Virus record (IMG/VR): IMGVR_UViG_3300047312_000054
Coordinates: 1 to 41,661 of that record
Length of the DNA: 41,661 nucleotides
Direction: 5' to 3' (one strand)
DNA from: a virus
Within the stretch, counting starts at the first letter, position 1. Each line of letters begins with the position of its first letter. Positions 1-14,976 of the stretch are shown one piece after another. The notes below the pieces were generated by a model, which was not told where the DNA came from, did no database searches, and worked only from the letters and a program-made list of their open reading frames with translations. Position numbers and translations under genes: made by a program.

Positions 1-18
1 GTCGCGGCGGCGAGCTAG
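1..18 (+). CDS. 3' end of the lipoprotein gene (partial)
   Basis: The first 18 bases encode the last residues VAAAS and a TAG stop. They equal the end of the lipoprotein gene at 38946-39293. The gene is cut only by the window edge. Confidence 0.85.
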   Translation, partial: VAAAS

Positions 19-41
19 CCGACGCGCCATTCCACTCAATT

Positions 42-1580: not shown

Positions 1581-1590
1581 TGAAAAGAGG

Positions 1591-1615
1591 TCGCCGACAA
1601 AGGTTGCGGCGGCGA
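1591..1615. terminator. Possible hairpin between convergent genes
   Basis: TCGCCG at 1591-1596 can pair with CGGCGA at 1610-1615 (or CGCCG with CGGCG at 1607-1611). It lies in the 36-bp gap between the glycosidase stop and the opposing exonuclease stop. There is no T-run, so at best it is a weak bidirectional terminator. Confidence 0.25.
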
Positions 1616-1616
1616 G

Positions 1617-2483
1617 CTAATCCTTCGCTTCCTTGATCGTCCAGTAATCTTCGCCGCGCTTCCGGTATGGCGCAAGGTTCACGCCAGCGGCCTCCAGCGC
1701 CTTCTGATCCAGCGTCATGCGGCCGCGCGTGCGCGTGATAGTCAGCGGCCCGATCTGGTTTGTCGCGCCGGTGCAGACCGCCAGCAGCTTCGCCTTGAGC
1801 TTCTTTGTCTCGCGCTCGATGCGGCCGGCCTCCAGCGTCAGCGCGGCATACTCGGCCGCGATCGCCAGCAGCGCGGGCTCAACGATCTCGACGCTACCCT
1901 GATAGGTAGGAATTTCGGGTGGCGTGCGGTTGACGACATTCCACCAGAACGCGCGCTCCTTCTCGAATAGCTCAGCCTGGTACGCCGCGTCGGGCTCGAC
2001 CGGCACCAGCACTCCATCTTCGCCGTCGAAGCTCCAGTAGTGGAGCACCTTGGCCCCGAGCACCATCAGGATATGCTGCGCTTGAGCCCAATATTCGAAT
2101 GGAACGGTCCCTTCCTTGGCCTCGTTGTGCATCGCGCGACCAACCCATTTGATTTCGACGGGCGTCTCGGTGTCGAGGTCGTAGCCATCGAGGGACGCGC
2201 GGAGCCATTCGTGCTCGTGATGGACGGCCAGCGTCGGGACCGGCGCAAGGCCGGTTTCCATCGTGTAGGCGATGCGCGCGACGGCCTCGAGGTCCTTGCC
2301 GCGCTGCTGCGCCCAGTTGGACGGATCCTCGGCGACGAGGCCGGTCTTGATCTGCCATAGCTCGGTGAGCGTCGTGTACGGGGACGCGCCCATGACGACC
2401 GGCGCGTCGCTGCCACCGATGCCGCCGCGGCGCCACTCCAACCATTCCGGCGAGCCTTGGGCGAACGCTGGCGCGGGATTCAC
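1617..2483 (-). CDS. YqaJ-family viral recombinase / lambda-type exonuclease
   Basis: The product is a DNA exonuclease of the PD-(D/E)XK superfamily. In phages these resect double-strand ends and hand single strands to an annealing protein. Visible motifs are the N-terminal GGSDAPVVMG segment, with Asp99 followed by Glu110-Ile-Lys112, which fits the D...ExK metal site. I chose the GTG start at 2483, giving 288 aa. It overlaps the TGA of the upstream gene (GTGA) and has AAGGAG six bases ahead; a longer in-frame extension to 2564 lacks this. It is last in the leftward early operon and probably partners the protein at 3452-4720. The copy at the right end differs at six residues. Confidence 0.85.
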   Translation of the reverse strand: MNPAPAFAQGSPEWLEWRRGGIGGSDAPVVMGASPYTTLTELWQIKTGLVAEDPSNWAQQRGKDLEAVARIAYTMETGLAPVPTLAVHHEHEWLRASLDGYDLDTETPVEIKWVGRAMHNEAKEGTVPFEYWAQAQHILMVLGAKVLHYWSFDGEDGVLVPVEPDAAYQAELFEKERAFWWNVVNRTPPEIPTYQGSVEIVEPALLAIAAEYAALTLEAGRIERETKKLKAKLLAVCTGATNQIGPLTITRTRGRMTLDQKALEAAGVNLAPYRKRGEDYWTIKEAKD

Positions 2484-2869
2484 GGCGTCTCCTTCGGCGC
2501 GGGGTGGGCGGCGTCGTAAACTTTCACCCACGTTTGCGCCCGCATGTACTGATTCGGCGTGCATGGGGTCAGCGTAGCCGTTAGCTCGACGAACTCCCGC
2601 GCCTTGGCCAGCGTTGCCTCCTGCTCGCGCACGCGGTCGTTGAGGAAGCGCACCGTCTCGCGGAGACTGGTTAGCTCGGCCCCGCGTTCGATGCAGTGAT
2701 CGAAATGTTCAGCGGCTTGCTCGCGGAGGCTGGTTAGCTCGGCGTCCTGTCCACGAATGTGGGCGATGAGTTGACGTACCACACCCGCTCCGATGGTTGC
2801 GGTGCGATCGTCCGCGACAAACTCAGCAAGTTCGCGGTATTCTTCGATTTCTTCCTTCGTCAACATCAC
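2480..2869 (-). CDS. Coiled-coil early phage protein, function unknown
   Basis: The 129-aa acidic protein has a helical heptad-like middle (about residues 40-100) in which an Asp/Gly-Ala-Glu-Leu-Thr-Ser-Leu-Arg-Glu phrase occurs twice. No enzyme motif is visible. Its start overlaps the stop of the upstream gene and its stop overlaps the GTG of the exonuclease, so it is probably translationally coupled. Either of two adjacent ATG codons could be used. A structural or accessory role to recombination is possible, but only the position suggests it. Confidence 0.6.
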   Translation of the reverse strand: MMLTKEEIEEYRELAEFVADDRTATIGAGVVRQLIAHIRGQDAELTSLREQAAEHFDHCIERGAELTSLRETVRFLNDRVREQEATLAKAREFVELTATLTPCTPNQYMRAQTWVKVYDAAHPAPKETP

Positions 2870-3081
2870 TTCACCTTCCGGTCACGGTATGGTTTCCAGC
2901 CGACCCATTTGCCGATGTACACTACCCTCCCCGGATGCACGACAAACTCAGCGCCGCATTCGTCGCATAAGAACATTTGTGACGCTCCACCTTCGGGTCC
3001 GGGACGCCATAGACTATTACCATGACAAGGATGGGCCTTATCTAGCAACGCGCGGTCCGACGCTTCCACGAACGCCATCAC
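2866..3081 (-). CDS. Small zinc-binding protein
   Basis: The 71-aa product contains a CDEC knuckle in the middle (about residues 39-42) and a single Cys-His pair near residue 20, consistent with a small zinc site. The C-terminus is basic and aromatic. It overlaps both neighbours by four bases within the early operon. I recognise no family. Confidence 0.6.
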   Translation of the reverse strand: MMAFVEASDRALLDKAHPCHGNSLWRPGPEGGASQMFLCDECGAEFVVHPGRVVYIGKWVGWKPYRDRKVK

Positions 3082-3455
3082 TTCACCTCCAGGCTGGCCG
3101 TCGCGCGGATGACGGCGGCGGCGAGCAGCCCCCGAAAACCACCAACACCATCTAATTCAATGCATCCATCCGAGAACAACTCGACGCTCATGTCGCATTG
3201 TTCCACCAGGTTGACGAGCATCTGCCAGAGTAGTTCGTCGGTGACGACGGGCATGGGGATGTCGTGCGGTTTGTATACGGTTGTGCTTCGATTTTCCGTA
3301 AAGTCAAATCCGCAGATTTTGCATAACGTATGCCGCTCAACATTATAGGTGAGGGGGTTACTAGACCGTTCGCATCGCTGCCCCGGCTTCCACAGACCTG
3401 CGTTAACCAGCGCTTGCTGCCACTGGGCCTCGGTGACTCCGGCGGGTAGGTTCAT
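3078..3455 (-). CDS. Early phage protein with one CxxC pair, function unknown
   Basis: The 125-aa protein has an N-terminal helix resembling small helical phage proteins, then Cys-Lys-Ile-Cys at about residues 45-48. The C-terminal half is more conserved-looking, acidic and hydrophobic. It may bind zinc or nucleic acid. Four-base overlaps with both neighbours indicate coupled translation. Confidence 0.6.
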   Translation of the reverse strand: MNLPAGVTEAQWQQALVNAGLWKPGQRCERSSNPLTYNVERHTLCKICGFDFTENRSTTVYKPHDIPMPVVTDELLWQMLVNLVEQCDMSVELFSDGCIELDGVGGFRGLLAAAVIRATASLEVK

Positions 3456-4720
3456 TGCCCCACCGCCTTCTGCACTTCGGCGACGATCTGATCGTAGCGC
3501 GCCTTCGGAATATCGCGGCTGTGTTCGAAGCCGAATTGCCCGAGTATTTCCTTGAGCAAGGGACCGTCGCCCTTCGCGATCGCATAGAGCCGCTTGCCTT
3601 GCGCATCGCTGATGAGGGCCGCGTTGGCATTCTGCTCGCGGATGCGCTGCTCGGTTCCGTTGATGATGGTCTCGGCGCGCTTGATCGATTCGTCCGAAGC
3701 TGGCGCGGGATCGGCATTCTCCGGGAAGTCGATATCGCCGGCGTGAAGGTCGGCTTCGGGCGCCGGTTGATCCTGCGGGCCTTCGGTGCGGACATACTCC
3801 GCGAGCCGCGTCATCATTAGCTGGAAATCGGCGACGGTGACTTCACCCCATTTCTTACGATTGAGTGCGTGGAGCTGCTCGCCCAGCCACTTATCGCCAG
3901 CCTCGGCGCTGCCGGCCGCCTTGTGCGCGGCGTCCACGAGGGCCTTGCGCTGCTGCGAAGTAGCCGGGTCGGTGGGCTTCTGGCGCGAGCCCATGTCGAT
4001 AACATCGAGGCTGTTCGGATCGACGCCGTTAGCGGGTGGCTTCCGCGCGCGAAGGTTCTCTTCCAAATCTTCGAGGTCCTGTGTGAAGATGTCCGACGCG
4101 GCGGTTCCGTTGAGCACTGCGGCGACCAGCGCGCGCTTATCGGCCATCTTGAGGACGGTGTTCCACTGGTCAGCGAGATCATCGTTAGCCTTACGGCCTA
4201 CTTCCTGACTCTCGATCGAGGCGATCTCCTCGGGCGTCTGGAATTGCGCGCCGCACCCGTCTTTTTTTGCCCAACAGTAATAGCCCGCGTCCTTTTTGCT
4301 CTTGAACACGGCGGCGACTCCACACTTCGGGCAGGCGCGCTCCGCGCGGCGATAGGCGTACTTGCTCTCGTGCGTCGAGCCCATGCCGGAGCCAGTGGCA
4401 ACCAACGTTCCGCTGGGTGAGTGGATCAGCCGACAGGTGGAAGTCACCGTGAGATGCCCACCAGGCTCGCGATCGGTCTGATGAGAGTATTCGGGCGAGA
4501 AGCGGAACATCAGGCAGAGCTTTTCCGCGCCCGGCTTGAGCAGGGTTTTCTTCTGGCCGGTGCCGGGGATGACGCCGTAGTGCTCGCCGTCGATCAGGGC
4601 GACCTTCATCAACTCCTGAATCTTCTTGGTCTGGGCGAGCACCATTTCGACGCTCATCTCCTGAGCCATCGCCACGGCTTGCTCGTCGCGGACTGCTACT
4701 GCGGTTGTCTCGGTGGTCAT
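3452..4720 (-). CDS. Probable recombination / ssDNA-annealing partner protein with a zinc knuckle
   Basis: The 422-aa protein has an N-terminal domain with the phrases DGEHYGVIPGTG (about 44-55) and KKTLLKPGAEKL (about 57-68). This domain is widespread in phages next to exonuclease genes. A zinc knuckle with Cys130-x2-Cys133 and Cys149/Cys156 follows, then a helix with an ADKRALVAAVL phrase and a long polar C-terminal part. Pairing with a YqaJ exonuclease in one operon suggests a two-component annealing system. The assignment as an annealing protein is inference; it could instead be a DNA-binding accessory protein. The start is the ATG at 4720, next to the stop of the upstream gene. Confidence 0.55.
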   Translation of the reverse strand: MTTETTAVAVRDEQAVAMAQEMSVEMVLAQTKKIQELMKVALIDGEHYGVIPGTGQKKTLLKPGAEKLCLMFRFSPEYSHQTDREPGGHLTVTSTCRLIHSPSGTLVATGSGMGSTHESKYAYRRAERACPKCGVAAVFKSKKDAGYYCWAKKDGCGAQFQTPEEIASIESQEVGRKANDDLADQWNTVLKMADKRALVAAVLNGTAASDIFTQDLEDLEENLRARKPPANGVDPNSLDVIDMGSRQKPTDPATSQQRKALVDAAHKAAGSAEAGDKWLGEQLHALNRKKWGEVTVADFQLMMTRLAEYVRTEGPQDQPAPEADLHAGDIDFPENADPAPASDESIKRAETIINGTEQRIREQNANAALISDAQGKRLYAIAKGDGPLLKEILGQFGFEHSRDIPKARYDQIVAEVQKAVGQ

Positions 4721-4722
4721 TG

Positions 4723-4992
4723 CTAAGGCTCCATCCAGTGAGTTTCGGGGTTGTGGTTTAGCGCGTAATGCTGATCGTAATGGGTCTGGCAGAACGCCTT
4801 GTGATGCGCGGAGCAGCTAAAGCCGCAGGTGTAGTAGGAGAACAGGCGCTCGCCGCAGGTAGAGCACGGCACAGAGCGGCTCATGCTGCCCGACACGCGT
4901 GCCACGCCCTCGCGCCACCTGACGTAGTGCGGGTTAAGCTGCTTGCCGAATAGGAGATCGAGGGCGTCTAGGACTGGTGCAGCGCTCATCAC
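4723..4992 (-). CDS. Cys/His-rich zinc-binding protein
   Basis: The 89-aa protein carries CSTC, a Cys-x-Phe-x-Cys run and several His residues between about residues 42 and 75, a pattern of a treble-clef or double zinc finger. The N-terminus is a hydrophobic helix without a signal sequence. It begins at one of two adjacent ATG codons (4992 or 4989) that overlap the upstream stop. A role in nucleic-acid or host-protein binding is plausible but unproven. Confidence 0.6.
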   Translation of the reverse strand: MMSAAPVLDALDLLFGKQLNPHYVRWREGVARVSGSMSRSVPCSTCGERLFSYYTCGFSCSAHHKAFCQTHYDQHYALNHNPETHWMEP

Positions 4993-5195
4993 TTCACTCC
5001 CAGATAGCTGGCGAGATGGCCCAGCATCGGCTGAAACGTGACATAGAGGCCGAAGGCGACCGCCGCCAGTATGAACAGGCCGTAGGCCACGGCGGTCACG
5101 GCGGTCAGGTCATATTCGCGCTTCGACTCGCGGAGCCAATCGCGCGTCGGGCTGCTCTGCTCGAACGGGCCGTGCTTGGTTGCTTCCGAGTTCAT
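4989..5195 (-). CDS. Single-pass membrane protein
   Basis: The 68-aa protein has a polar, charged N-terminus and one transmembrane helix at about residues 31-54. The N-terminus should lie in the cytoplasm. It sits among early genes rather than in the lysis block, so superinfection exclusion or membrane modification is a possible role. GGAGG-like sequence precedes the ATG. Confidence 0.55.
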   Translation of the reverse strand: MNSEATKHGPFEQSSPTRDWLRESKREYDLTAVTAVAYGLFILAAVAFGLYVTFQPMLGHLASYLGVK

Positions 5196-5207
5196 TGGCG
5201 GTCCTCC

Positions 5208-5423
5208 CTAGTCGAAATCGTCAGGTTCATCGCGGTCATCGCCGTGGGCCATCCACTTAAAAAACAGCGGAACGGTACAGCCGCACAGGTGGCAGAGCGC
5301 CCCATCCTCGTGATCCTCGATTGAGTGGCCGCAGTCGCATACACGAACGTCGCTATCGTCCGGACCGCCAGGGCCTTGCTGTAGCCACGTGTCGTAATCG
5401 AGGCTCTCGCGCGGGCGGCTCAT
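5208..5423 (-). CDS. Acidic zinc-ribbon-like protein
   Basis: The 71-aa protein has Cys-Asp-Cys-Gly-His and Cys-His-Leu-Cys-Gly-Cys clusters in the middle and a very acidic C-terminus rich in Asp. The spacing fits a small zinc ribbon. The start overlaps the TGA of the gene at 5420-5587 (ATGA). Function unknown. Confidence 0.6.
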   Translation of the reverse strand: MSRPRESLDYDTWLQQGPGGPDDSDVRVCDCGHSIEDHEDGALCHLCGCTVPLFFKWMAHGDDRDEPDDFD

Positions 5424-5587
5424 CGCGGCCCATCCTTACGCGCAAAGCCCTCGACGATGTAGCTAGTTTCGCAGGCGAGACGCACTTCATCGGGATCGGC
5501 GGAATGTGCGACCACCATTGCCAATCCTTTGATGATCAGCGCCCGTTCAGCGCTGCTCAGTTCGATTGCTCGCAGAGACCCGGTCAC
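5420..5587 (-). CDS. Small early protein (55 aa), GTG start
   Basis: The short reading frame starts with GTG at 5587. The start overlaps the previous TGA by GTGA, and its own TGA overlaps the next ATG. Perfect coupling on both sides is the main evidence that it is translated. The product is helical, ends in a charged Lys-Asp-Gly-Pro-Arg tail and has one Cys. No family is recognised. Confidence 0.55.
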   Translation of the reverse strand: MTGSLRAIELSSAERALIIKGLAMVVAHSADPDEVRLACETSYIVEGFARKDGPR

Positions 5588-5838
5588 AGGCCCTCTCCTT
5601 TAATTCGCCGCACCTTGGCGTGCCGGTCTGCGATCAGCGCCTCCAGCGGCGCGGCTGAGGCCTCACGGAAGCTCCGATGCGCGACGGCCAGCGCATGGAC
5701 CTCGCGCGAAGTCTGCGGGCGCTCATAGAGCGGGATGGCGTCGAAGAACTCCTGCGAGTCATTGCCGTTGCGGGCGAGTTCGGCGACCAGAATCATGCCG
5801 TGGCGCACGGCGCGGTACTTCTCTCTCGATAACCCCAT
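5584..5838 (-). CDS. First gene of the leftward early operon, function unknown
   Basis: I chose the ATG at 5838, giving 84 aa, because GGGAGG lies about eight bases upstream. In-frame ATGs further up lack a ribosome site and run into the promoter. The protein is small, helical and rich in Arg and Glu. Being first after the promoter suggests an early regulatory or host-directed protein; that is inference only. Confidence 0.6.
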   Translation of the reverse strand: MGLSREKYRAVRHGMILVAELARNGNDSQEFFDAIPLYERPQTSREVHALAVAHRSFREASAAPLEALIADRHAKVRRIKGEGL

Positions 5839-5871
5839 TGACCGTTCCTCCCTTTGTGCGTTCATGCTTAG

Positions 5872-5901
5872 TATGTAGCGCAGGCTATATAGTTCTGTCA
5901 A
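5872..5901 (-). promoter_or_regulatory. Leftward early promoter
   Basis: On the minus strand a perfect TTGACA (-35, 5896-5901) is followed after 18 bp by TACATA (-10, 5872-5877). The AT-rich spacer stands out from the surrounding GC-rich sequence. It would start the mRNA about 20-30 bases ahead of the ribosome site of the gene at 5584-5838. Confidence 0.6.
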
Positions 5902-5944
5902 TAGGGTTGCGCCGATATATTTCGTATGATAGAAATTCTGGTAA

Positions 5945-6145
5945 ATGATGAGCGTGGGAAAAAAGAAAATCGTCGCGTGGGAGTACCGTTGCGAGCGCTG
6001 CACCTATGAGTGGAAGTCCTTCGCCGACCGCCCGCCGCGCAACTGCCCCGCGTGCAATTCGCCCTACTGGGATCGGCCTCGTCGCGATGGCGAGGCTCCC
6101 GTCGCGAAGCCCAGACCGCGCAAAAGTCCCGCAAAGCGCAAATAA
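5945..6145 (+). CDS. Small zinc-ribbon protein, FmdB-like
   Basis: The 66-aa protein has a Cys-Glu-Arg-Cys knuckle near the N-terminus and a second Cys-Pro-Ala-Cys knuckle about 20 residues later, followed by a Lys/Arg/Pro-rich tail. This is the usual zinc ribbon of small regulatory phage proteins. It lies between the divergent early promoters, so a regulatory role is likely. A second ATG three bases downstream could be the true start, and no strong ribosome site is seen. Confidence 0.6.
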   Translation: MMSVGKKKIVAWEYRCERCTYEWKSFADRPPRNCPACNSPYWDRPRRDGEAPVAKPRPRKSPAKRK

Positions 6146-6299
6146 GTACGGTCGCATCGCGCTTCCATTTGACGCCTCGCGGTAGATGCGATTATCGTCA
6201 GCGCTGGCTCTGTTCACACTTTGCCCACTTGCGGTCACTACGGCTTGGCTCGTAGTTCAATCCGAAACATAGCTCGGAGGATTTATGCCTGATGGTTGA

Positions 6300-6329
6300 A
6301 GAATAGTCGCACGCTGGACATTTTGTCAA
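6300..6329 (-). promoter_or_regulatory. Second leftward promoter overlapping operator 1
   Basis: On the minus strand a perfect TTGACA (6324-6329) is followed after 18 bp by TATTCT (6300-6305; four of six match TATAAT). Its -35 overlaps operator copy 1. Transcripts would run antisense to the zinc-ribbon gene and could enter the early operon. Confidence 0.45.
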
Positions 6330-6348
6330 CTCAGATGAACATTTTGTC
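6317..6348. promoter_or_regulatory. Twin operator-like palindromes
   Basis: ACATTTTGTC occurs at 6318-6327 and again at 6339-6348, exactly 21 bp (two helical turns) apart. The first copy is part of GACA-TTT-TGTC, an 11-bp palindrome at 6317-6327. The whole block is bounded by TGGACA and TGTCCA. It sits between the -35 elements of the two divergent promoters. The likely ligand is the regulator encoded just downstream. Confidence 0.6.
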
Positions 6349-6358
6349 CAAAAATCTA

Positions 6359-6387
6359 TTGACATTGGGTTTGAGTGCCAGTATCGT
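6359..6387 (+). promoter_or_regulatory. Rightward promoter for the regulator-integrase operon
   Basis: TTGACA (6359-6364), 17-bp spacer and TATCGT (6382-6387; four of six match). Transcription would start at about 6394, some 14 bases ahead of the ATG at 6408. This rules out a longer reading frame from 6375. Confidence 0.6.
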
Positions 6388-6407
6388 TGCGAATATGCTT
6401 CCGTCCT

Positions 6408-6764
6408 ATGAAAAAGCGGAAGCGTCGTTCAAAAAGAGCTAGTGGCGAAAATAAGTGGGTAAAGTTTGCGTTCAGGCAGTGGGAACGCCAACAAAGGTAT
6501 CTCGAGGATATGAAAGCAAAAGGCAGCACACCGCCGAATCATCCGCCCGATGCGCCGTGGGACTGGCTGGGCTTCGCCATTCACCAGATGGGCGGCCCCG
6601 GACAGGCCGCACAGAGGCTCGGCGTATCCCGACAGACGCTCTACACGTACCTTGAGGAAGGGCTCGGGAGCGCCAAGTTCAGCACCGTATTGAAGATTGC
6701 GAAGGAAACGCGCATCCCGCTTGAGTATCTACGGGAAGGCGCGCCTGATCCGGCGCACGTCTAA
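6408..6764 (+). CDS. Helix-turn-helix regulator (candidate repressor or Cro-like protein)
   Basis: The 118-aa product starts with a Lys/Arg-rich segment. Its C-terminal half holds a helix-turn-helix of the Cro/CI or YdaS kind: the phrase GQAAQRLGVSRQTLYTYLEE near residues 68-87 has the typical Ala-x3-Gly-Val-Ser turn. The ATG at 6408 was chosen because the promoter overlaps the upstream extension. There is no self-cleavage domain, so SOS induction would need another route. It is transcribed with the integrase. Which state it enforces cannot be told from sequence. Confidence 0.65.
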   Translation: MKKRKRRSKRASGENKWVKFAFRQWERQQRYLEDMKAKGSTPPNHPPDAPWDWLGFAIHQMGGPGQAAQRLGVSRQTLYTYLEEGLGSAKFSTVLKIAKETRIPLEYLREGAPDPAHV

Positions 6765-6769
6765 AGGGA

Positions 6770-7819
6770 ATGACCGGCCTCGGGCGCATATACAAGCAGA
6801 AGCGCAGCCGTTTCTGGTGGTATCAGATTCACGTCCACGGCCACGTGGTACGCAAATCGACCGGCCAGACCGACCAGCGCAAGGCGCGCGACGTGCTCCG
6901 CACGGTCATCGAGCGCATCGGCGCGGGCTCGTACCTGCCGACCGAGAGCGAAATCACCTTCGCGGAAATCGCGGCCGGCTACCTGCACGACTTCGAGGTC
7001 AACGGGAACCGCTCTCTGGTTGATGCGAAGCGCAACGTAAAGGCGCTGTCCGTGCATTTCGGCGGCCTGCGCGCGCTCGATATTCGCCAGACGAAGATTC
7101 GGGCATATGTGGCGGCGCGACGCGCGCACGGGCTTGCAAACGCGAGCATCAACCGGGAATTGGCGGCGCTGCGAAGGATGTTCTCGCTGGCGATCGAGCA
7201 CGAGGTATTGAGCCGTGGCCCGAAAATCAAGCTCCTCAAGGAAGACAACGTCCGGCGCAACTTTCTCCAACCCGCAGATTTTGACGCTATCCGAGGGCAT
7301 CTACCGGATTATCTTCAAGACGCGCTCAGTTGGCTTTATCTATGCGGTGGGCGAAAAAACGAAATGGTGTCCCTCAAGTGGCGCGACGTTGGAGAGGGTG
7401 AAGTAACGATCCGCGGCGAGAATACCAAGAACGGCAGGTCGCGGACGATTCCGCTGGTGGGGGAACTCCATGAAATCATCGAAAGAGCCCGAGCAAATCG
7501 GCGGCTTGATTGTCCTTTCGTATTCCACCGGAACGGTAAAACGCTGGGAGATTTTAAAAAAGCGTGGGCAAAAGCTCGTGTGGCTAGCGGATATCAGGGT
7601 GTCTGGGTCCACGACCTTAGACGAAGTGCAGCTCGTAACCTCGTTAGGACTCCTGGAGTGAGCATGCACGCGGCGATGGCGGTGACGGGGCACGTCACGG
7701 CATCGATGTTCCGGCGCTACGACATTCAGGATACGGCGGACGTGGCCGACGCCCTGACGCGGACGCAGGAGCGCATCGCGGAGTCCAAGGGCGCGGCGAA
7801 GGTGAAGGCGATCCGATGA
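6770..7819 (+). CDS. int: Tyrosine integrase
   Basis: The 349-aa site-specific recombinase would insert the phage genome into the host chromosome. The N-terminal part (about 1-55) looks like an arm-binding domain and the core-binding domain follows at about 60-145. Catalytic residues can be placed: Arg195 (CGGRKNE), Lys220, His281-x2-Arg284 (HDLRR), His308 (TGH) and Tyr317 in a FRRYDI context. Length and motif order are normal for phage integrases. It is followed at four-base overlaps by small genes and then by the putative attP at about 8521-8568. Its own ribosome site is weak. Confidence 0.93.
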   Translation: MTGLGRIYKQKRSRFWWYQIHVHGHVVRKSTGQTDQRKARDVLRTVIERIGAGSYLPTESEITFAEIAAGYLHDFEVNGNRSLVDAKRNVKALSVHFGGLRALDIRQTKIRAYVAARRAHGLANASINRELAALRRMFSLAIEHEVLSRGPKIKLLKEDNVRRNFLQPADFDAIRGHLPDYLQDALSWLYLCGGRKNEMVSLKWRDVGEGEVTIRGENTKNGRSRTIPLVGELHEIIERARANRRLDCPFVFHRNGKTLGDFKKAWAKARVASGYQGVWVHDLRRSAARNLVRTPGVSMHAAMAVTGHVTASMFRRYDIQDTADVADALTRTQERIAESKGAAKVKAIR

Positions 7820-8019
7820 GCGACTGGCAGCCGATCGAAACCGCGCCGCGCGAGATGGGAGCGCAGATACTCGCGTATGTGCCGAAGACTGGCGATTGGG
7901 GATATCCGTTCGGGGTCGTCGTGGCGAAGTGGACCGGCGAATATACCGAATGGGCAATGCCCGGAATCTGCGGTCTCAGCCCGACTCACTGGATGCCGCT
8001 TCCCGAGGAGCCGCGATGA
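7816..8019 (+). CDS. DUF551-like small phage protein
   Basis: The 67-aa protein matches the usual DUF551 outline: Trp-Gln-Pro-Ile-Glu-Thr-Ala-Pro at the N-terminus, an ILAYVP strand, and a C-terminal Thr-His-Trp-Met-Pro-Leu-Pro. The family is common in phages; its function is unknown. It overlaps the integrase stop by four bases (ATGA). A relative lies at 10421-10636. Confidence 0.75.
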   Translation: MSDWQPIETAPREMGAQILAYVPKTGDWGYPFGVVVAKWTGEYTEWAMPGICGLSPTHWMPLPEEPR

Positions 8020-8216
8020 ACGAAGCACCGACCCAGCCTGACGAGGGGCGCCTGCTGACGGCGGCGGAGCTGGCCGCGCTGATGCGGGTCAGCCTTAGCT
8101 GGGTGCGCCACGACGGCGCGAAGCTACCCTTCGCGGTGCGACTGCCGGGGCGGTCGAAGGTACACGGCTACAGCTACACCGGCTATCTGCGGTGGAAGGA
8201 GCGGCAGGCGGGATGA
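8016..8216 (+). CDS. Excisionase / AlpA-like winged-helix protein (candidate)
   Basis: The 66-aa product carries LLTAAELAALMRVSLSWV, the helix-turn-helix opening of MerR/excisionase-type small DNA-binding proteins. It ends with a basic Trp-Lys-Glu-Arg segment. Its place directly after the integrase and before attP suits a recombination directionality factor. The ATG at 8016 overlaps the previous TGA, so longer in-frame extensions are unlikely. Confidence 0.6.
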   Translation: MNEAPTQPDEGRLLTAAELAALMRVSLSWVRHDGAKLPFAVRLPGRSKVHGYSYTGYLRWKERQAG

Positions 8217-8404
8217 CGTTATCCGACCGCATCCTCGAGCATCGGCGCGCCGCAATCGCCGCTAATCGCGAAGTCGAGCCATTCGAGGTGACGCCGGAGG
8301 AGTTGATCCTACTACTTAAGCGCGCGGTCTCGCAGGGCTCGCTGTCCGACCTGCGTGGCAAATCGATGCGCGTGTTGGGCGTAGAGATTAAGCTCAAGCG
8401 ATGA
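8213..8404 (+). CDS. Small helical protein of unknown function
   Basis: The 63-aa, highly charged protein starts at the ATG overlapping the previous stop (8213). It shows a Leu-rich helix (ELILLLKRAV) and a basic C-terminus. No family recognised. It is the last gene before attP and may accompany the integration module. Confidence 0.55.
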   Translation: MTLSDRILEHRRAAIAANREVEPFEVTPEELILLLKRAVSQGSLSDLRGKSMRVLGVEIKLKR

Positions 8405-8406
8405 CT

Positions 8407-8426
8407 GCTATGATCAAAGTATGCCT
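8407..8426 (+). repeat. Left 20-bp direct repeat of attP (probable integrase arm site)
   Basis: GCTATGATCAAAGTATGCCT is found here and, without a mismatch, at 8633-8652. The two copies are 226 bp apart and bracket the tRNA-like core. Integrases of this family bind short repeated arm sites on both sides of the core. Confidence 0.65.
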
Positions 8427-8520
8427 TACGACCCCGCACACGCCTGCACATTGCCGCATATCGTGGGGTAGCAAAGTGCGGGAAATGCTGGCGAAGTGCA
8501 GCCGTGGACCGCAGCCCTTC

Positions 8521-8568
8521 GGACTTTTAATCAGAGGGTCGCGGGTCCGAATCCCGCACGGCTCACCA
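8521..8568 (+). other. Putative attP core: 3' half of a tRNA-Lys gene
   Basis: The segment reads as an anticodon loop CTTTTAA (anticodon TTT, Lys; 8524-8530), a five-base variable region, a perfect T-arm with GCGGG/CCCGC stem (8541-8557), the acceptor 3' strand ACGGCTC, discriminator A and CCA (8566-8568). AGCCGT at 8500-8505 could complete the acceptor stem, but the space left for a D-arm is about six bases too short, and the outermost pair would be C-C. An attachment core that rebuilds the host tRNA gene is therefore more likely than a working phage tRNA. Integrases often use the tRNA 3' half as the core. Confidence 0.75.
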
Positions 8569-8586
8569 AAACCTCTTATATCTCTT

Positions 8587-8629
8587 GGCCTTTTCGGGGC
8601 CGGAAGTAAAAATCCGGCTCCGAAGGGCC
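8587..8629. terminator. Long imperfect inverted repeat next to attP
   Basis: GGCCTTTTCGGGGCCGG (8587-8603) can pair with CCGGCTCCGAAGGGCC (8614-8629) around a ten-base A-rich loop, with one bulge and few mismatches. No T-run follows on either side. It could end transcription from the integrase operon or serve as a structural element of attP. Confidence 0.45.
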
Positions 8630-8632
8630 TCA

Positions 8633-8652
8633 GCTATGATCAAAGTATGCCT
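8633..8652 (+). repeat. Right 20-bp direct repeat of attP
   Basis: Perfect second copy of the repeat at 8407-8426, in the same orientation, about 65 bp beyond the tRNA-like CCA end. Confidence 0.65.
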
Positions 8653-8672
8653 CAGCTTGTTTTGGGGGTCGC

Positions 8673-9179
8673 ATGAGAGACCTTCAACGGCTGCGGGAAT
8701 TTCAGCGCCAGTGGATGCGTCGGCGTCGCTCGGAATGGATCGCCGCTAACGGTCCTTGCGCGCAATGCGGGTCGCCGGATCGGCTTGAGGCTGACCATAG
8801 AGATCGCGAATCGAAGCGCTTCACCGCCAGCGCGATTTGGAGCATGTCACGCCGCAATCCCAACCGGGTCGCGGAACTGGCGAAGCTCCAAGTCCTCTGT
8901 TTCTCCTGCCACAAGGCCAAGACCCGCTCTGAATTCATCAAGCCGTTAGTTCACGGCACCTATAACGCTTACAAGAAAAAAGCCTGCCGCTGCGATCAAT
9001 GCCGCGCGTGGAACGCGCAGCGGGCGAGGATCTGGAATGCGCGGGCCTCCAGCGTTCGACAGACGATTGGGTCAATGCCCAGCCAAGATCGACCGGAGGT
9101 CCGCGATATTTTTTTACTCGCGAATGCCGAATTAGCGCCTATGGATGCGTGTTTGTCGAAAAGCGCAAACGAGGTTTAG
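8673..9179 (+). CDS. HNH endonuclease family protein
   Basis: The 168-aa protein has the Cys29-x2-Cys32 knuckle, the LEADH motif with Asp41-His42 and a second Cys-x2-Cys-His about 45 residues later: the zinc-supported HNH fold. A further Cys-Arg-Cys-x2-Cys cluster follows, then a low-complexity tail. Free-standing HNH genes in this position act as homing nucleases or assist packaging or replication; the exact role is open. It is the first gene to the right of attP. Confidence 0.75.
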   Translation: MRDLQRLREFQRQWMRRRRSEWIAANGPCAQCGSPDRLEADHRDRESKRFTASAIWSMSRRNPNRVAELAKLQVLCFSCHKAKTRSEFIKPLVHGTYNAYKKKACRCDQCRAWNAQRARIWNARASSVRQTIGSMPSQDRPEVRDIFLLANAELAPMDACLSKSANEV

Positions 9180-9207
9180 GCCCGCGTAGGCAGATCATCT
9201 CGCGGGC
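9180..9207. other. Stem-loop directly after the HNH gene
   Basis: GCCCGCG (9180-9186) pairs perfectly with CGCGGGC (9201-9207) around a 14-base loop, starting on the base after the HNH stop. No T-run follows. The 9208-9337 stretch beyond it is unusually purine- and G-rich on this strand and holds no gene I can support. Confidence 0.45.
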
Positions 9208-9337
9208 GCGGATCGGGAGTCAACGGGGGAACGGAGAATCGGTCTCGCAGGGAACAAGGGGAGCAATCGGTAACGAGCGGAGGCGGACGGGGCGGGAACA
9301 GAACGGAAGCGGACGTGAGTGGGGAGCATCAAAGGAA

Positions 9338-10099
9338 TTGCCGGACAGATTTATTCGTGAATCAGCGTTGACCAGCGAATCATTGGCCCAGCTCTCGGAC
9401 TTCGGCGAGCGCCTGTTCTGGCGCCTGACGACCATCGCCGATGACTTCGGGCGCTTCGCGGCCAATCCATCGGTGGTCGCCGGCCGCACGATGCCCCTCA
9501 TATCGGGCGCGACGGCCAAGAAAATCGATGCTGCGCTGGCCGAACTGGAGAGCGCGAACGCGGTCAGGCGGTACACCGTTGACGGCAAACATTACGCCTA
9601 TTTCGTCGGTTGGAAGAAGCACCAGATAACGCGAGCAAAATACAGCAAGTTTCCAGAGCCGCCAACATCTGCCGACATCTGTCAGCAAATGCCAACAGAT
9701 GAAAACGACTCCGACAAGGTCTGCGCCAGACCTAATTCGAATTCGGATTCGCATTCGCATTCGGATCTTAATTCTTCGGAAGGGGAGTCCGAGGGGAAAC
9801 CAGACAAGCCGCCGCCGCTCACGCCGGAGGACCTCGTCGAGGGCTGGAACGAAGTCTGCGCACCCGCAGGGCTGCCGAAAGTCGAGATGCTATCGGCGAC
9901 GCGGCGCCAGAAGGCGCTGTGCCGGCTTCGCGACCATCCCGACGACGCTTTCTGGAACGTGGCGATGGCGCGAGTGCGGGCATCTCCGTTCCTGACCGGC
10001 AAGAACGAGCGGAAGTGGAAGGCCAATTTCGATTGGCTGATCGACAACGACACGAATGCAGTCAAGGTCTATGAGGGCCGGTATGCCAAGGAGAATTAG
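9338..10099 (+). CDS. Replication initiator / replisome organiser-like protein
   Basis: The product (253 aa from a TTG at 9338) has an N-terminal domain opening with PDRFIRESALTSE, typical of phage replication proteins with a winged-helix DNA-binding domain (about 1-105). A Ser/Asn/His/Asp-rich linker (about 130-150) and a C-terminal WNEVC...WLID domain follow, probably for helicase or partner contact. The reading frame extends upstream to 8999, over the HNH gene, without an ATG or GTG near the domain. TTG directly before PDRFIRES, with GGGGAG 11 bases ahead, is the best start I see but is uncertain. The linker is encoded by hexamer repeats that may be an origin. Confidence 0.65.
   Translation: MPDRFIRESALTSESLAQLSDFGERLFWRLTTIADDFGRFAANPSVVAGRTMPLISGATAKKIDAALAELESANAVRRYTVDGKHYAYFVGWKKHQITRAKYSKFPEPPTSADICQQMPTDENDSDKVCARPNSNSDSHSHSDLNSSEGESEGKPDKPPPLTPEDLVEGWNEVCAPAGLPKVEMLSATRRQKALCRLRDHPDDAFWNVAMARVRASPFLTGKNERKWKANFDWLIDNDTNAVKVYEGRYAKEN
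9735..9764 (+). repeat. Five tandem ATTCG-N hexamers inside the replication gene (origin candidate)
   Basis: Five 6-bp units, ATTCGA, ATTCGG, ATTCGC, ATTCGC and ATTCGG, lie head to tail, and a sixth decayed unit follows. They encode the polar linker of the initiator. Lambda-type phages keep their origin iterons inside the initiator gene, so this is a reasonable origin candidate, though it may simply encode a flexible linker. Confidence 0.5.
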
Positions 10100-10424
10100 C
10101 GGCGCAGTAGCCGAAGAAGCGGGCGGCGCGCCGCCGTGCGAGGGCAAGTCCTGGGCCTTCGGCGCGAAGTTCCGCGGCGAGCCGCATGACTGCTACCAGG
10201 CGCATCCGCCGTGCATGAACTGCTTCGCGGACCTCGGCTGCCGCCGCTGCTCGGGGCTGATCGAGGAGCTGCTGTGCATGAAGTGCCACAACTGGGGCCA
10301 TCCGGCGGCGCTAGAAAAGCACGGCAAGCTCGGCAAGACGCCGACCGAAAAGCTGCGGATGCAACAGGGGCTGAAGATTATCGAGGGCTTGGTCGCCAAG
10401 ACCAAACCGGTGGAAGCGCTATGA
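10083..10424 (+). CDS. Cys-rich zinc-binding protein
   Basis: The protein (113 aa from the ATG at 10083, with GAGGG just upstream) has at least eight Cys in its middle: Cys-Met-Asn-Cys, Cys-Arg-Arg-Cys and Cys-Met-Lys-Cys pairs with nearby His. These would form two zinc sites. The C-terminus is helical and basic. It overlaps the replication gene end and the next start (ATGA). Role unknown. Confidence 0.6.
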   Translation: MPRRISGAVAEEAGGAPPCEGKSWAFGAKFRGEPHDCYQAHPPCMNCFADLGCRRCSGLIEELLCMKCHNWGHPAALEKHGKLGKTPTEKLRMQQGLKIIEGLVAKTKPVEAL

Positions 10425-10636
10425 TTTCCGTGACGATCGATTGGCAACCGATGGCGACCGCGCCAAAAGACGGCCGCACGATCCATCTGCGAATCCTGCA
10501 CGCGAACTATCACCACGCCCGCACGGACGAGGACCGCGCCCGCTGGGAGCAGCACGTCGAGGCTCACTGGATCGACCACAACGGCGGCGGTTGGACTTAC
10601 CACGGCATGATGGGTCAGCCGGTGGGTTGGCGATGA
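10421..10636 (+). CDS. DUF551-like small protein, second copy type
   Basis: The 71-aa protein begins with Trp-Gln-Pro-Met-Ala-Thr-Ala-Pro-Lys-Asp-Gly, the hallmark opening of DUF551-like phage proteins. Its C-terminus differs from the relative at 7816-8019, ending in Gly-Trp-Arg. Start and stop overlap both neighbours by four bases. Function unknown. Confidence 0.6.
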   Translation: MISVTIDWQPMATAPKDGRTIHLRILHANYHHARTDEDRARWEQHVEAHWIDHNGGGWTYHGMMGQPVGWR

Positions 10637-11013
10637 GTGCGACGCCAGCCCAGCGCGCGAAGCTCGCGCGACGCATCGCCACGGCTCCGCTGAAACGGGC
10701 GACGAAGTATCGCTCGCGCCCGACCACCTGCACTGCGGGCCATCGCCATCCGAGTGCCAAGGAATCCGACCGTTGCGGGATTCTTCGTCTGCTCGAAAAG
10801 GGCGGCGAGCTGGAAGACCTGAAGTTCCAGCCGCGCTACAAGCTGGCGGTCGATGGCTTCCCGGTGTGCACCTATGTGGCCGATTTTTCGTACATCGACG
10901 CGCGCACGCGCAAATTCGTCATCGAGGACTGCAAAGGCGTGCTGACGCCGGTCTATCGGCTCAAGAAAAAGCTGATGAAGGCCTGTCATGGGCTGGAGAT
11001 AACCGAGACGTGA
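10633..11013 (+). CDS. DUF1064 (PD-(D/E)XK-like) endonuclease / resolvase-like protein
   Basis: The 126-aa protein has the DUF1064 signature: an SAKESDR helix, YVADFSY, then IEDCKG and a Lys-rich C-terminal helix. Asp (in ADF), Glu-Asp and Lys (in EDCKG) form the expected metal-dependent nuclease site. Members occur in phage replication modules and are thought to process DNA branches or ends. The four-base overlap with the previous gene indicates coupling. Confidence 0.75.
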   Translation: MSATPAQRAKLARRIATAPLKRATKYRSRPTTCTAGHRHPSAKESDRCGILRLLEKGGELEDLKFQPRYKLAVDGFPVCTYVADFSYIDARTRKFVIEDCKGVLTPVYRLKKKLMKACHGLEITET

Positions 11014-11048
11014 TTAACGTCCGTAACCGTTCCCGTGGGGGGAGCAAA

Positions 11049-11627
11049 ATGAGCGACAGCGACCATTTCAGCGGCTCGATGGGCTTAGGCGGCCTCTTCG
11101 ACGCCATCAACATTCCCGACCTGATGACGCCGGGCCAATTCGCCGACATGGTCGGCAAAAGCAGCGAACTGGAGCCGGAGCAGCGGCTCAAGCTGGCGAT
11201 TCTCGAAGACGCCATCGCCTGCTACCTCAAAGTCGCGCCAATACCCGGCTATAGCGGAGAGGACCGCTTAGAGCAGGTGTCGAACCGCAAGCGCCGGATG
11301 CACGCCGAAGCGCTGGAGTGGATCGAGGGCGCCGATGCGCCGATCACCTTCGAGGATTGCTGCGAATCGCTGGGCATCAACCCGGAATGGATGCGCGCGG
11401 GCATTTTGCGCGGGCCGGTGAGCGCGCTACCAGGGCACGGACAAGCCGGGCGCGATTGCAAAATCGGCACACCGCGGCATCGTGGACGCCAGTTCCGGCG
11501 CTCGCCAGTCAGCGTGCACATGACGGTGGAAGTCGCCGAGCGCACGCCGCGCGCGACCAGCGCCTTTGCGCCGCTGAGCGGCCATCAGGTCGTGATGGAC
11601 GGGCTTTTCCAAGAGGTCGCGGAGTGA
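11049..11627 (+). CDS. Phage protein of unknown function before the terminase
   Basis: The 192-aa protein starts at the ATG at 11049, which has an excellent GGGGGAG site. The N-terminus is rich in Gly and Ser, a helical middle follows (about 35-75), then a segment like a small helix-turn-helix (FEDCCESLGINPEWMR), and a basic C-terminus. The helix-turn-helix-like part recalls late regulators, but this is weak. Confidence 0.6.
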   Translation: MSDSDHFSGSMGLGGLFDAINIPDLMTPGQFADMVGKSSELEPEQRLKLAILEDAIACYLKVAPIPGYSGEDRLEQVSNRKRRMHAEALEWIEGADAPITFEDCCESLGINPEWMRAGILRGPVSALPGHGQAGRDCKIGTPRHRGRQFRRSPVSVHMTVEVAERTPRATSAFAPLSGHQVVMDGLFQEVAE

Positions 11628-11863
11628 TTCCCGGCATAGCCGAAGCCGTCGCCCATTTCCTGCGCATCGATCCTGATATGCCGCGCAAGCGCTGTACGCG
11701 GTGCCACCGCAATAAGCCGGTGACGGCCTTCTACCAACGCCCGAAGTCGAAATCGCGCCGATTTCCGCAGATGCGCACCACGCGCGACGGTCTGCACAGC
11801 GCCTGCAAAGCGTGTCACGTCGATGGCGTCATGCGCTCGAAGCGCAAGCGGAGGGTTGCATAA
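11624..11863 (+). CDS. Small zinc-finger protein, GTG start
   Basis: The 79-aa protein starts with GTG at 11624 overlapping the previous TGA. It has Cys-Thr-Arg-Cys-His and Cys-Lys-Ala-Cys-His pairs about 35 residues apart around a Pro-Val-Thr-Ala-Phe-Tyr segment, the pattern of small HNH-like or RecR-like zinc fingers. It ends in a Lys/Arg tail. DNA binding is likely. Confidence 0.6.
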   Translation: MIPGIAEAVAHFLRIDPDMPRKRCTRCHRNKPVTAFYQRPKSKSRRFPQMRTTRDGLHSACKACHVDGVMRSKRKRRVA

Positions 11864-11864
11864 C

Positions 11865-12260
11865 ATGGGGCGTCCAACGAAACTGACTCCGCAAGTACAG
11901 AAGCGCATCTGCGATGCCATCTTGCGCGGCCACACCTACGAAATCGCCTGCCGTCTCGGCGGAATCAGCGATGAAACCCTCAGCACTTGGCGTGAGAAAG
12001 GTGAGAAAGGCATCGAGCCCTATGCTGGGTTCCTTGGAGCTTTTACGCGCGCGGTGGACGACCACGAGAACGAGATGCTGCAAATCGTGTATGACGCAGC
12101 GATGAAAGGACTCGACGATCGTGGACCCGACTGGCGGGCGGCGAGCTGGACGCTCGAGCGTCGCCATCCAGAACGCTGGGCGAAGCGTGAGAAGCACGAA
12201 GTGACCGGCGAAGGCGGCGGTCCGCTGGTGGTGAAGGTGATCAGCTACAAGGATTCGTGA
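11865..12260 (+). CDS. terS: Terminase small subunit
   Basis: The 131-aa protein opens with MGRPTKLTPQVQ and a helix-turn-helix (CDAILRGHTYEIACRLGGIS), the usual DNA-recognition domain of small terminase subunits. The C-terminal part contains the WTLERRHPERW phrase common in this family. It recognises phage DNA and loads the large subunit. The ATG at 11865 was chosen on homology of the opening residues. Confidence 0.8.
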   Translation: MGRPTKLTPQVQKRICDAILRGHTYEIACRLGGISDETLSTWREKGEKGIEPYAGFLGAFTRAVDDHENEMLQIVYDAAMKGLDDRGPDWRAASWTLERRHPERWAKREKHEVTGEGGGPLVVKVISYKDS

Positions 12261-12332
12261 GGGCTTCAGAGCGGTGGGGATTCGGAATGGACAAGTATCA
12301 CATCGAGGCGCTTGACACAATTCGATGATTAG

Positions 12333-12503
12333 ATGATTAGCTTCGAGGCATTCCGCGCGGAGTTCAAGACGGCACAAGCGGCCTTCGACAAGGCCTGCGA
12401 GATGGCGGAGATCGCCCAGCGCCTGGGCGACAAGCAGGGGCAGCGGGACTTCACGGCGTTCGCCCAGCGCATCTACGAGACGGAGCGAGTGCGGAGTGCC
12501 TGA
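12333..12503 (+). CDS. Small helical protein between the terminase genes
   Basis: The 56-aa reading frame runs from ATG 12333 and ends eight bases inside the terminase large-subunit gene. The product is an amphipathic, Ala/Glu/Gln-rich helix. Frame continuity with the next start and GC-rich third positions support it. Function unknown. A short 9-bp tandem repeat (GATGATTAG) lies over its start. Confidence 0.55.
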   Translation: MISFEAFRAEFKTAQAAFDKACEMAEIAQRLGDKQGQRDFTAFAQRIYETERVRSA

Positions 12504-13833
12504 AGTCGTCATCCCGCACCGCTTCTATCCGCGCAGCTACCAGCGCAAGGTATTCGCCGCGCGCGAGGATGGCGTGCGCTTTTTCGACCTCTGCTGGCAT
12601 CGGCGCTCCGGCAAGGACAAGACCCTCCTCAACCTGATGATTCGCGAGATGGCCCAGACTGTGGGCAATTATCTCTACCTGCTGCCGACTGCCGTGGGCG
12701 CGCGGCGTAACGTATGGGAGGCTATCGGTCATGACGGACTGCGCTGGACCGATCATTTTCCCCCAGAACTCATCGCTACGAAACGCGACGATCAGCTCTT
12801 CATAAGGCTCAAGAACGGAAGCACCTTCCAGCTTTCTGGTTCGGATGACCCCGATGCGCTTCGCGGAGCAAATCCTATCGGTGTCGTATTCTCCGAATAT
12901 TCACTTTGCCGAGAGTCCGCATGGGATACCGTGCGACCCATACTTGCTGAGAATGGCGGCTGGGCTGCCTTCTGTTATACCCCAAAAGGAACGAACCACG
13001 CCTACAAACTCCACCAAACCGCGAAAGCGCAGCAAATCTCCGCGCGGCGCGAATGGTTCTCGTCCACGCTCGACGTAAACCAGAGCCTTCGCGATGCGGT
13101 CAACGAGGCCGGCGGCGCGGTGGTGCAGCTCGACGAGATCGAGCGCGACAGGCGGGAGGGTGTCGATGAAGATTTCATTCAGCAGGAATACTATTGCTCG
13201 TTCAGCGGGTACATGGTCGGGAGTTACTATGGTCATCTCATGGCGGACGCGGACCGGCAAGGCCGTCTTACGCGAGTGGGATACGATGCGCGACTTCCGG
13301 TGGAAACTGCTTGGGATCTCGGTGTGGGTGACGCGACTGCGATATGGTTCGTGCAACGAATTAGTCGTGAGATTCGCCTCATCGACTACCACGAGGACTC
13401 GGGCGCGAGCCTGACCGATTACATCAAGGTCGTAAAGGAAAAACCGTATGTCTATTCCCGCCATTGGGCACCTCATGATATCCGGGTCCGCGAGTTTAGC
13501 TCTGGACGCTCCCGGCTCGAATCCGCTGAAAGTCTCGGCCTTCGGTTTGATATCGTGCCCAACCTGCCAGTCGATGACGGCATTGCCGCCGTTCGGTCCC
13601 TGCTTCCACGCTGCTACTTCGACGCCGACCGCTGCAAAGCCGGAATTAACGCCCTCCTGAACTACAAGCGCACCTTTAACGAGGAGCGCAAAGCCTTCGA
13701 GAAGCGCCCGTATCACGACTGGAGCTCCAACGGCGCTGACGCCTTTCGCTACCTCGCGGTCAGCGAGGACATCACCGAGCGCCCAGACCAGCGCCAGACA
13801 GTAGCGGAAACCGACTATAACCCGTTCGCCTAG
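12496..13833 (+). CDS. terL: Terminase large subunit
   Basis: The 445-aa packaging motor ATPase and nuclease. A Walker-A-like HRRSGKDK lies at 35-42 and a Walker-B-like GVVFSEY with Glu134 at 129-135. The C-terminal RNase H-like nuclease starts at AWDLGVGDAT with Asp274 and ends with HDWSSNGADAFRY. Length and motif order are normal. It starts with GTG at 12496, overlapping the small upstream gene. It follows the small subunit and precedes the portal module. Confidence 0.92.
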   Translation: MPEVVIPHRFYPRSYQRKVFAAREDGVRFFDLCWHRRSGKDKTLLNLMIREMAQTVGNYLYLLPTAVGARRNVWEAIGHDGLRWTDHFPPELIATKRDDQLFIRLKNGSTFQLSGSDDPDALRGANPIGVVFSEYSLCRESAWDTVRPILAENGGWAAFCYTPKGTNHAYKLHQTAKAQQISARREWFSSTLDVNQSLRDAVNEAGGAVVQLDEIERDRREGVDEDFIQQEYYCSFSGYMVGSYYGHLMADADRQGRLTRVGYDARLPVETAWDLGVGDATAIWFVQRISREIRLIDYHEDSGASLTDYIKVVKEKPYVYSRHWAPHDIRVREFSSGRSRLESAESLGLRFDIVPNLPVDDGIAAVRSLLPRCYFDADRCKAGINALLNYKRTFNEERKAFEKRPYHDWSSNGADAFRYLAVSEDITERPDQRQTVAETDYNPFA

Positions 13834-13850
13834 TTGACTCCGTCGCCCGT

Positions 13851-14051
13851 ATGAGATCGAGTAGTAGCAACGTGGCTAAGACGCACTGGATATCGGGAGC
13901 CATAAAGCACCCTGGGGCCTTGCATGAGGAGCTGGGCGTGCCGAAAGGTAAGAAGATTCCACGGACGCTGTTAGCCAAGGCGATGCACTCGAAGAATCCC
14001 ACCGAGCGTAAACGTGCACAACTCGCCAAGACCCTTATGGGAATGCACTGA
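13851..14051 (+). CDS. Conserved small basic phage protein
   Basis: The 66-aa, Lys-rich protein carries a recognisable phrase (GAIKHPGALHEELGVPKGKK) seen in small proteins near portal or terminase genes of many phages. It may bind DNA or the capsid interior. The function is not established. Confidence 0.7.
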   Translation: MRSSSSNVAKTHWISGAIKHPGALHEELGVPKGKKIPRTLLAKAMHSKNPTERKRAQLAKTLMGMH

Positions 14052-14093
14052 GTGTGGACCTTAACCGCAATTTTCCAATCACTGAGGACGATC

Positions 14094-14372
14094 ATGGCAG
14101 AAATCGACGATTTGAAGGCGGCCGTAGCGGCCAACACCCAAGCGGTAGCCGATAACGCAGCCGCACTCTCCAAGCTGGCGACTGACGTTGACGCTGGAGT
14201 GGCGAAACTGGTTGCCGTGGTACAGAGCGGCGGCGCGAGCGTGGCCGACATCGAGGCGGCTGCACAGGCAGTCACCGCGAACACTGCGGCGCTCAAGGCT
14301 GGCACCGATACGATGGTGGCCGAAGCCGGCAAGCTCGAAGGCGCACTGAATCCGCCCGCGCCCACGCCGTAA
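14094..14372 (+). CDS. Ala-rich coiled-coil protein
   Basis: The 92-aa protein from ATG 14094 has GAGGA six bases upstream. It is an Ala/Val/Asp-rich helix with heptad spacing over almost its full length and a Pro-rich end. Such proteins occur as minor structural or scaffold-like components. No firm family. Confidence 0.6.
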   Translation: MAEIDDLKAAVAANTQAVADNAAALSKLATDVDAGVAKLVAVVQSGGASVADIEAAAQAVTANTAALKAGTDTMVAEAGKLEGALNPPAPTP

Positions 14373-14374
14373 CA

Positions 14375-14578
14375 ATGCCGAGCATCGATGATTACATCGA
14401 TCGGCGGAACGAGATCCAGCTCCGCGCAGAAGCTAAAGGCAACGCGGCCGGCGCCGCTAAGTGGACTGAACTAGGCGTGGCTAATCGCCATATCGCGCGC
14501 GTGCTAGAGGGGACGCTACCTCTCACGCCCGAATTGGAGCAGGAGATAGAATCGTGCTTAAGGCGCGCAGATGCCTAG
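14375..14578 (+). CDS. Small helical protein of unknown function
   Basis: The 67-aa protein is charged and helical, with IDDYIDRRNEIQ near the start and Leu/Glu-rich C-terminus. It overlaps the next gene by eight bases. No family recognised. Confidence 0.55.
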   Translation: MPSIDDYIDRRNEIQLRAEAKGNAAGAAKWTELGVANRHIARVLEGTLPLTPELEQEIESCLRRADA

Positions 14579-14768
14579 CGTGTTCAGCGGACCGCCAAAG
14601 ATGCCCACGCCGCCGAAGCCGCCAGCGCCACCGCCCGATCCGACGCTGACCGAGCAGGCCTTGGAGAATCGGCGTCGTGCCGGGGCAAACAACACCATCT
14701 TGGCGGGCGACCTGACGCGGAGCGCGAGCGGCTCGTCGGCCGCAACGAAAAGTTTATTGGGAGGATAG
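14571..14768 (+). CDS. Pro-rich small structural-type protein
   Basis: The 65-aa protein has a Pro/Lys-rich first half (PPKMPTPPKPP) and a second half with Arg-Arg-Ala-Gly and a Thr-Lys-Ser-Leu-Leu-Gly end. This outline is typical of small proteins found just upstream of portal genes in podoviruses. Role unknown, probably virion-associated. Confidence 0.65.
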   Translation: MPSVFSGPPKMPTPPKPPAPPPDPTLTEQALENRRRAGANNTILAGDLTRSASGSSAATKSLLGG

Positions 14769-14772
14769 TTAA

Positions 14773-14973
14773 ATGAAACCCGAACACTATGGAATGGGAA
14801 CCTTTGGCGGGACGCCGCCTGCAAGCGTGGCGACGGCTCCGATGGCACAGACCGAGCGCGTTTCCCACGCGCAGCGCATCATGGAGCTTCTCGAGCGCGT
14901 AGGAAAGCTCGAACAGGCGTTGGGTGAAGCCTATTCGCGTATCGGCCACCTCGAAGCGGTCCTTGGGGAATAA
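14773..14973 (+). CDS. Small coiled-coil protein
   Basis: The 66-aa protein has a Gly/Pro-rich opening and a heptad-patterned helix at about 33-64 (IMELLERVGKLEQALGE). GGGAGG precedes the ATG. It may be an accessory structural protein. Confidence 0.6.
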   Translation: MKPEHYGMGTFGGTPPASVATAPMAQTERVSHAQRIMELLERVGKLEQALGEAYSRIGHLEAVLGE

Positions 14974-14976
14974 TCC

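Follow-up and report, generated by a model that had tools for sequence, protein, structure and literature searches.

Temperate mycobacteriophages provide the closest described counterparts to the locus analysed here, with attP cores of 30–45 bp taken from the 3' half of a tRNA gene and arm sites arranged as paired direct repeats (PMC10865867, PMC3706429, PMC3203893). The Boilgate system (attP/attB-4) has a 43-bp core from the 3' half of tRNA-Lys-TTT flanked by putative arm-type sites, and it tolerates single-base core differences, five in all, while still permitting a rebuilt tRNA (PMC10865867). In Cluster J phages, attP lies 3' of int, and its 44-bp core stands between pairs of imperfect direct arm repeats (PMC3706429), whereas in the Cluster K phages CrimD and Pixie the core is flanked by pairs of 11-bp arm-type repeats whose specificity differs between close relatives, the target of Pixie being a tRNA-Lys (PMC3203893). 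The Fionnbharth-type phages, which practise tRNA-dependent lysogeny, also target tRNA-Lys(TTT) and use a lambda-like integrase and arm-site pairs, but their core is only 10 bp long and they carry a tRNA of their own (PMC10865867).

The window, by which we mean the whole stretch of 41,661 nucleotides forming the virus record under study, codes for a terminase, a head-tail adaptor, a major head protein, an internal virion protein, tail proteins, an endolysin and a RecE-like exonuclease; together with the integrase gene (int), these genes indicate a temperate phage, presumably podovirus-like in morphology. Positions 8405–8672 very probably constitute its attP, on which the integrase (Int) would act through arm doublets and a core, with a tRNA-Lys(TTT) gene as target and a host in the uncultivated deltaproteobacterial order that contains the MAG ‘Deltaproteobacteria bacterium isolate clean291’ (hereafter G001, and its order the host order). 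With a tyrosine integrase bearing the catalytic set nearby, a core that rebuilds a tRNA and arm repeats on both sides of that core, the design is that of a textbook lambda-type attP in a tRNA gene, and since tRNA 3'-half cores with paired arm repeats have already been described in mycobacteriophages, it belongs to a known kind. It shares with Boilgate the tRNA-Lys-TTT 3'-half core, the flanking putative arm sites and single-base core differences compatible with a rebuilt tRNA, with Cluster J the position 3' of int and the paired direct repeats on both sides, and with Cluster K the flanking pairs and, for Pixie, a tRNA-Lys target. The differences are equally clear: Boilgate has an actinobacterial host, another integrase and mismatches elsewhere (PMC10865867); the Cluster J core lies about 100 bp from int, in tRNA-Leu, and in another host phylum (PMC3706429); and in Cluster K some pairs are inverted and the hosts are others (PMC3203893). 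The Cluster J arm consensus TGCATAC (PMC3706429) is close to GGCATAC, the window half-site in reverse complement, a resemblance that may be due to chance. What is new in our case is the host order, the anatomy of the doublets at a constant position and the difference in isoacceptor between sister phages.

Table 1. Coordinates of attP and of the genes around it in the window
Feature	Position	Strand	Basis
Gene of a small HTH regulator (CI/MerR-like), preceding int	6375–6764	+	Weak Pfam HTH matches at about residues 70–120
int, tyrosine integrase, 349 aa	6770–7819	+	PHROG 1 integrase, E 1e-48; PF00589, E 3.6e-16; SAM-like core-binding domain
66-aa HTH-like ORF, candidate excisionase (RDF)	8016–8216	+	DNA conserved in the sister phage L003 at its start, there too just before attP
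Left arm site	8407–8426	+	Doublet CTATGAT (8408–8414) + GTATGCC (8419–8425), period 11 bp; exact repeat; doublet plan common to L003
attP core, 3' half of tRNA-Lys(TTT)	8522–8571	+	Anticodon loop 8524–8530, CCA 8566–8568; base-by-base alignment
Right arm site	8633–8652	+	Doublet CTATGAT (8634–8640) + GTATGCC (8645–8651), period 11 bp; exact repeat
HNH endonuclease gene, first gene right of attP	8673–9179	+	PHROG 4234, E 3.9e-30

The complete attP fills the gap that separates the HNH gene (Table 1) from the final small ORF of the int side, which ends at 8404. A 91-aa ORF that runs across it (8401–8676) was considered spurious because it is filled by tRNA sequence and repeats. The perfect flanking 20-bp repeats announced in the original prediction were borne out: GCTATGATCAAAGTATGCCT occurs exactly twice, on the same strand, as the direct repeats listed in Table 1, and is otherwise unique in the window at up to three mismatches (0 copies expected from 100 shuffles). 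The core CTTTTAATCAGAGGGTCGCGGGTCCGAATCCCGCACGGCTCACCA (8524–8568), which spans tRNA position 32 to the CCA, lies 64 bp left of the right repeat, in line with the predicted distance of about 65 bp, and 97 bp right of the left one, where 94 bp had been given. The proposal of an integrase core with arm sites is likewise supported, with the amendment that each 20-mer, then taken as one site, reads as a pair of 7-bp putative arm half-sites 11 bp apart. ARAGORN finds no tRNA gene in the whole window, nor in attP extended by 200 bp in both directions, so that the core is a 3' fragment without D-arm. Neither a folding tRNA with a D-arm nor related prophages inserted at another site came to light, and the core can indeed be read from the tRNA-Lys(TTT) anticodon loop to the CCA, although it is not a wild-type 3' half, as bases 8547 and 8551 differ from the best host tRNA.

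By inspection of its translation, Int possesses the complete R-K-H-R-H-Y catalytic set (R195, K220, H281, R284, H308 and Y317), and its gene lies 0.7 kb upstream of attP. The N-terminal domain of Int would bind both arm doublets while the core-binding and catalytic domains bind the core, thus bridging arms and core, and strands would be exchanged with the tRNA-Lys(TTT) gene of the host, at a putative crossover in or beside its anticodon loop. Upon such a putative integration, the host would retain the 5' half of its tRNA and gain the phage 3' half, so that a complete tRNA-Lys would be rebuilt at the HNH-side junction, with the HNH gene next to it in the prophage, whereas the int-side junction would end in a tRNA fragment. 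When the 3' half from the phage is attached in silico, at the predicted junction, to the 5' half of the G001 tRNA, ARAGORN recognises a full tRNA-Lys(ttt). Since the phage has no compensating tRNA gene, this rebuilding must work. Tyrosine-integrase systems of the tRNA-dependent lysogeny type, which combine a short non-rebuilding core with an isotype-matched phage tRNA, were considered and rejected, as the window has no tRNA gene and its long core rebuilds the tRNA in silico. Against our reading of the locus count the lack of an exact 45/45 host core and of any integrated copy of this phage in the genomes searched, the C at position 55, which the rebuilt tRNA would inherit, the reversed orientation of the tRNA relative to int in the host-genome relatives, and the N-terminus of Int, in which the roughly 60 residues ahead of the SAM-like domain have no match among arm-binding Pfam families.

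A relative of this phage is found in one viral contig (L003), whose integrase is 73% identical to that of the window. Its int is followed by an HTH ORF and then by a tRNA-Lys(CTT) 3' half with CTATGCCAGAACTATGCC and GTATGCCCCAGGTATGCC on its two sides, and each of these, like CTATGATCAAAGTATGCC of the window, consists of two STATGCC-like half-sites 11 bp apart. Measured from core C32, the doublets lie at -116/+110 in the window and at -125/+114 in L003. Motif, spacing and position have thus been kept while the sequence changed, as expected for arm-binding sites of related integrases, and the recurrence of the repeat layout around another tRNA-Lys 3' half supports the attP interpretation. The contrast between a Lys(TTT) core in the window and a Lys(CTT) core in L003 amounts to an isoacceptor switch with a conserved integrase.

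The protein that binds the doublets might also be another one, namely the excisionase (RDF) or a phage repressor, acting at what would still be attP. RDF sites too can be direct repeats one helical turn apart, as in the five 10–11 bp repeats bound by Apl at attP of phage 186 (PMC7498355), which makes the RDF the strongest competing candidate for the protein bound there. A putative RDF gene, the small HTH-like ORF, for which a Pfam search gave no match, adjoins attP. Nevertheless, the doublets stand on both sides of the core at a nearly constant distance in the window, in L003 and in elements of two host-order genomes (G005 and G016, described below), in the manner of Int arm-site pairs (PMC3706429, PMC3203893), which makes binding by RDF or repressor very unlikely and Int the preferred partner of the doublets.

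The core also points to the host. As a pattern with Y at position 55 and R at position 59, it has a single match among 84,980 species, the intact tRNA-Lys(TTT) of G001, to which it is identical at 43 of 45 positions (48 of 50 over 8522–8571). With up to three mismatches allowed, 21 of the 41 genomes of the host order contain it, as do 10 of the 107 remaining genomes of the class; across the phylum, sampled evenly with 395 genomes, the hits are 4 members of the order and 2 others (2 of ~387). The predicted attB, a tRNA-Lys(TTT) gene with an ACGGCTC acceptor, is therefore present in the host order and rare outside it. Relatives of Int at E ≤ 1e-70 are also concentrated in the order (15/41 of its genomes, 6/107 elsewhere in the class and 1 further in the phylum sample). 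When window positions 1–20000 were compared with the 148 genomes of the class, the best matches all fell, bar one, on 8519–8571; no integrated copy of the window phage was detected in these genomes, the matches being essentially the tRNA core and short conserved stretches. The 45-bp core of L003 is stricter host evidence than that of the window: it is identical over 45/45 positions to tRNA-Lys(CTT) in G001, G005, G006, G016 and G018, all of the host order, and is absent from the remaining 107 genomes of the class even at up to three mismatches.

These matches suggest that the host order of both phages, environmental viruses with no other host assignment, is probably that of G001. A host from a different lineage whose tRNA-Lys(TTT) is similar, attP being read correctly all the same, would agree with the lack of an exact 45/45 host core for the window and with the two genomes of other classes that match at up to three mismatches. 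We consider it unlikely, because the full 45/45 match of the L003 core is confined, among the genomes of the class, to G001's order, where the best match of the window core also lies and Int relatives are concentrated.

The exact window core matches nowhere in the viral or genome collections because the phage copy has a C at T-loop position 55 (base 8547), its T-loop reading TCCGAAT instead of TTCGAAT; base 8551 is the second difference from the best host tRNA. Position 55 of the tRNA T-loop is near-invariant and occupied by U/pseudouridine. Either the C stems from faulty assembly or sequencing, or the change is tolerated. In the latter case, the tRNA-Lys(TTT) of the host would on integration exchange its 3' half for a C55 copy, and it is conceivable, though hardly to be expected, that lysogeny alters a near-invariant position in this way, perhaps with an effect on translation. 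The two mismatches, one of them at such a position, might alternatively mean that tRNA fragment and repeats are the scar of an old recombination and no longer used. With an intact int frame, perfect repeats and the precedent of a Boilgate core that works with five differences (PMC10865867), such a dead remnant seems extremely improbable, and an attP in working order remains our reading.

Integrated elements of the host order exhibit the same doublet anatomy. Its relatives of the window Int sit near tRNA-Lys(CTT), Lys(TTT), Thr, Ala and Arg genes, and in these host genomes the tRNA is oriented opposite relative to int, unlike in the window. A doublet with a lag of 11 (at least 9 of 10 bases) occurs 40–115 nt beyond the 3' end in 17 of the 55 distinct tRNA genes of the fetched loci, some of which are orthologous and not all independent, against 0–2 for each of the other lags between 6 and 20 and likewise 0–2 for lag 11 further downstream. 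Among 23 distinct tRNA-Lys(TTT) contexts, five have the doublet (0.05 in shuffles; none at lags 9, 10, 12 and 13). In tRNA-Lys elements of the order the doublets lie at +108 to +114, a range that includes the +110 of the right arm doublet from core C32, despite their differing motifs (TTTGTACGAGA, TGTCCGTATTC, ATGTAGACGTT, GTGTCACTCTC and GGTAAGCAGTG). A doublet with 11-bp spacing about 70 bp past the tRNA 3' end may thus serve as a motif-independent signature for occupied tRNA sites in poorly known bacteria.

Two of these elements have both ends in sequence. In G005, 45-bp copies of tRNA-Lys(CTT) 4,576 bp apart enclose a distant integrase, with GGTAGCA doublets at both ends; this compact integrative element of 4.6 kb occupies positions 3012–7632 of locus L190 (G005:C157). 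In G016, perfect 45-bp copies of tRNA-Ala about 50 kb apart enclose a window-like integrase, with TGTCCGA doublets or triplets at both ends; the element (G016:C15:175317-225328, loci L146 and L050) lies in tRNA-Ala(GGC) and has three arm repeats at one end, against two at the opposite end. An arm doublet also lies downstream of G001's own tRNA-Lys(TTT) gene, and tRNA-Lys 3' fragments are present in G001 and G014 (L005 3272–3370, L089, L094 and L189), all of which we regard as signs of earlier or present occupation by other elements.

A search of other viral contigs for the window 20-mer was negative, as was one of viral contigs with canonical host-like tRNA-Lys(TTT) 3' halves, and the stretches fetched around 42 loci with portal relatives in viral contigs contained no recognisable tRNA-plus-doublet attP. 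A locus with a distant Int (28%) near an unrelated tRNA half (L004) was dropped; there, at 3265–4480, the integrase is followed by an apparent tRNA-Arg(TCG) gene 5' half, interrupted by other sequence.

Elsewhere in the phage genome, positions 1–2386 recur at 39276–41661, the first 1,775 bp being identical and the remainder differing by 36 mismatches (~94% identity), as if a circular or terminally redundant genome had been assembled from two strain variants. A stretch at 255–605 is 69% identical to one in G025:C117. Finally, two putative tail genes contain Pro/Thr-rich coding repeats with CCNACG-type units (169–268, 33565–34147 and 39444–39543).
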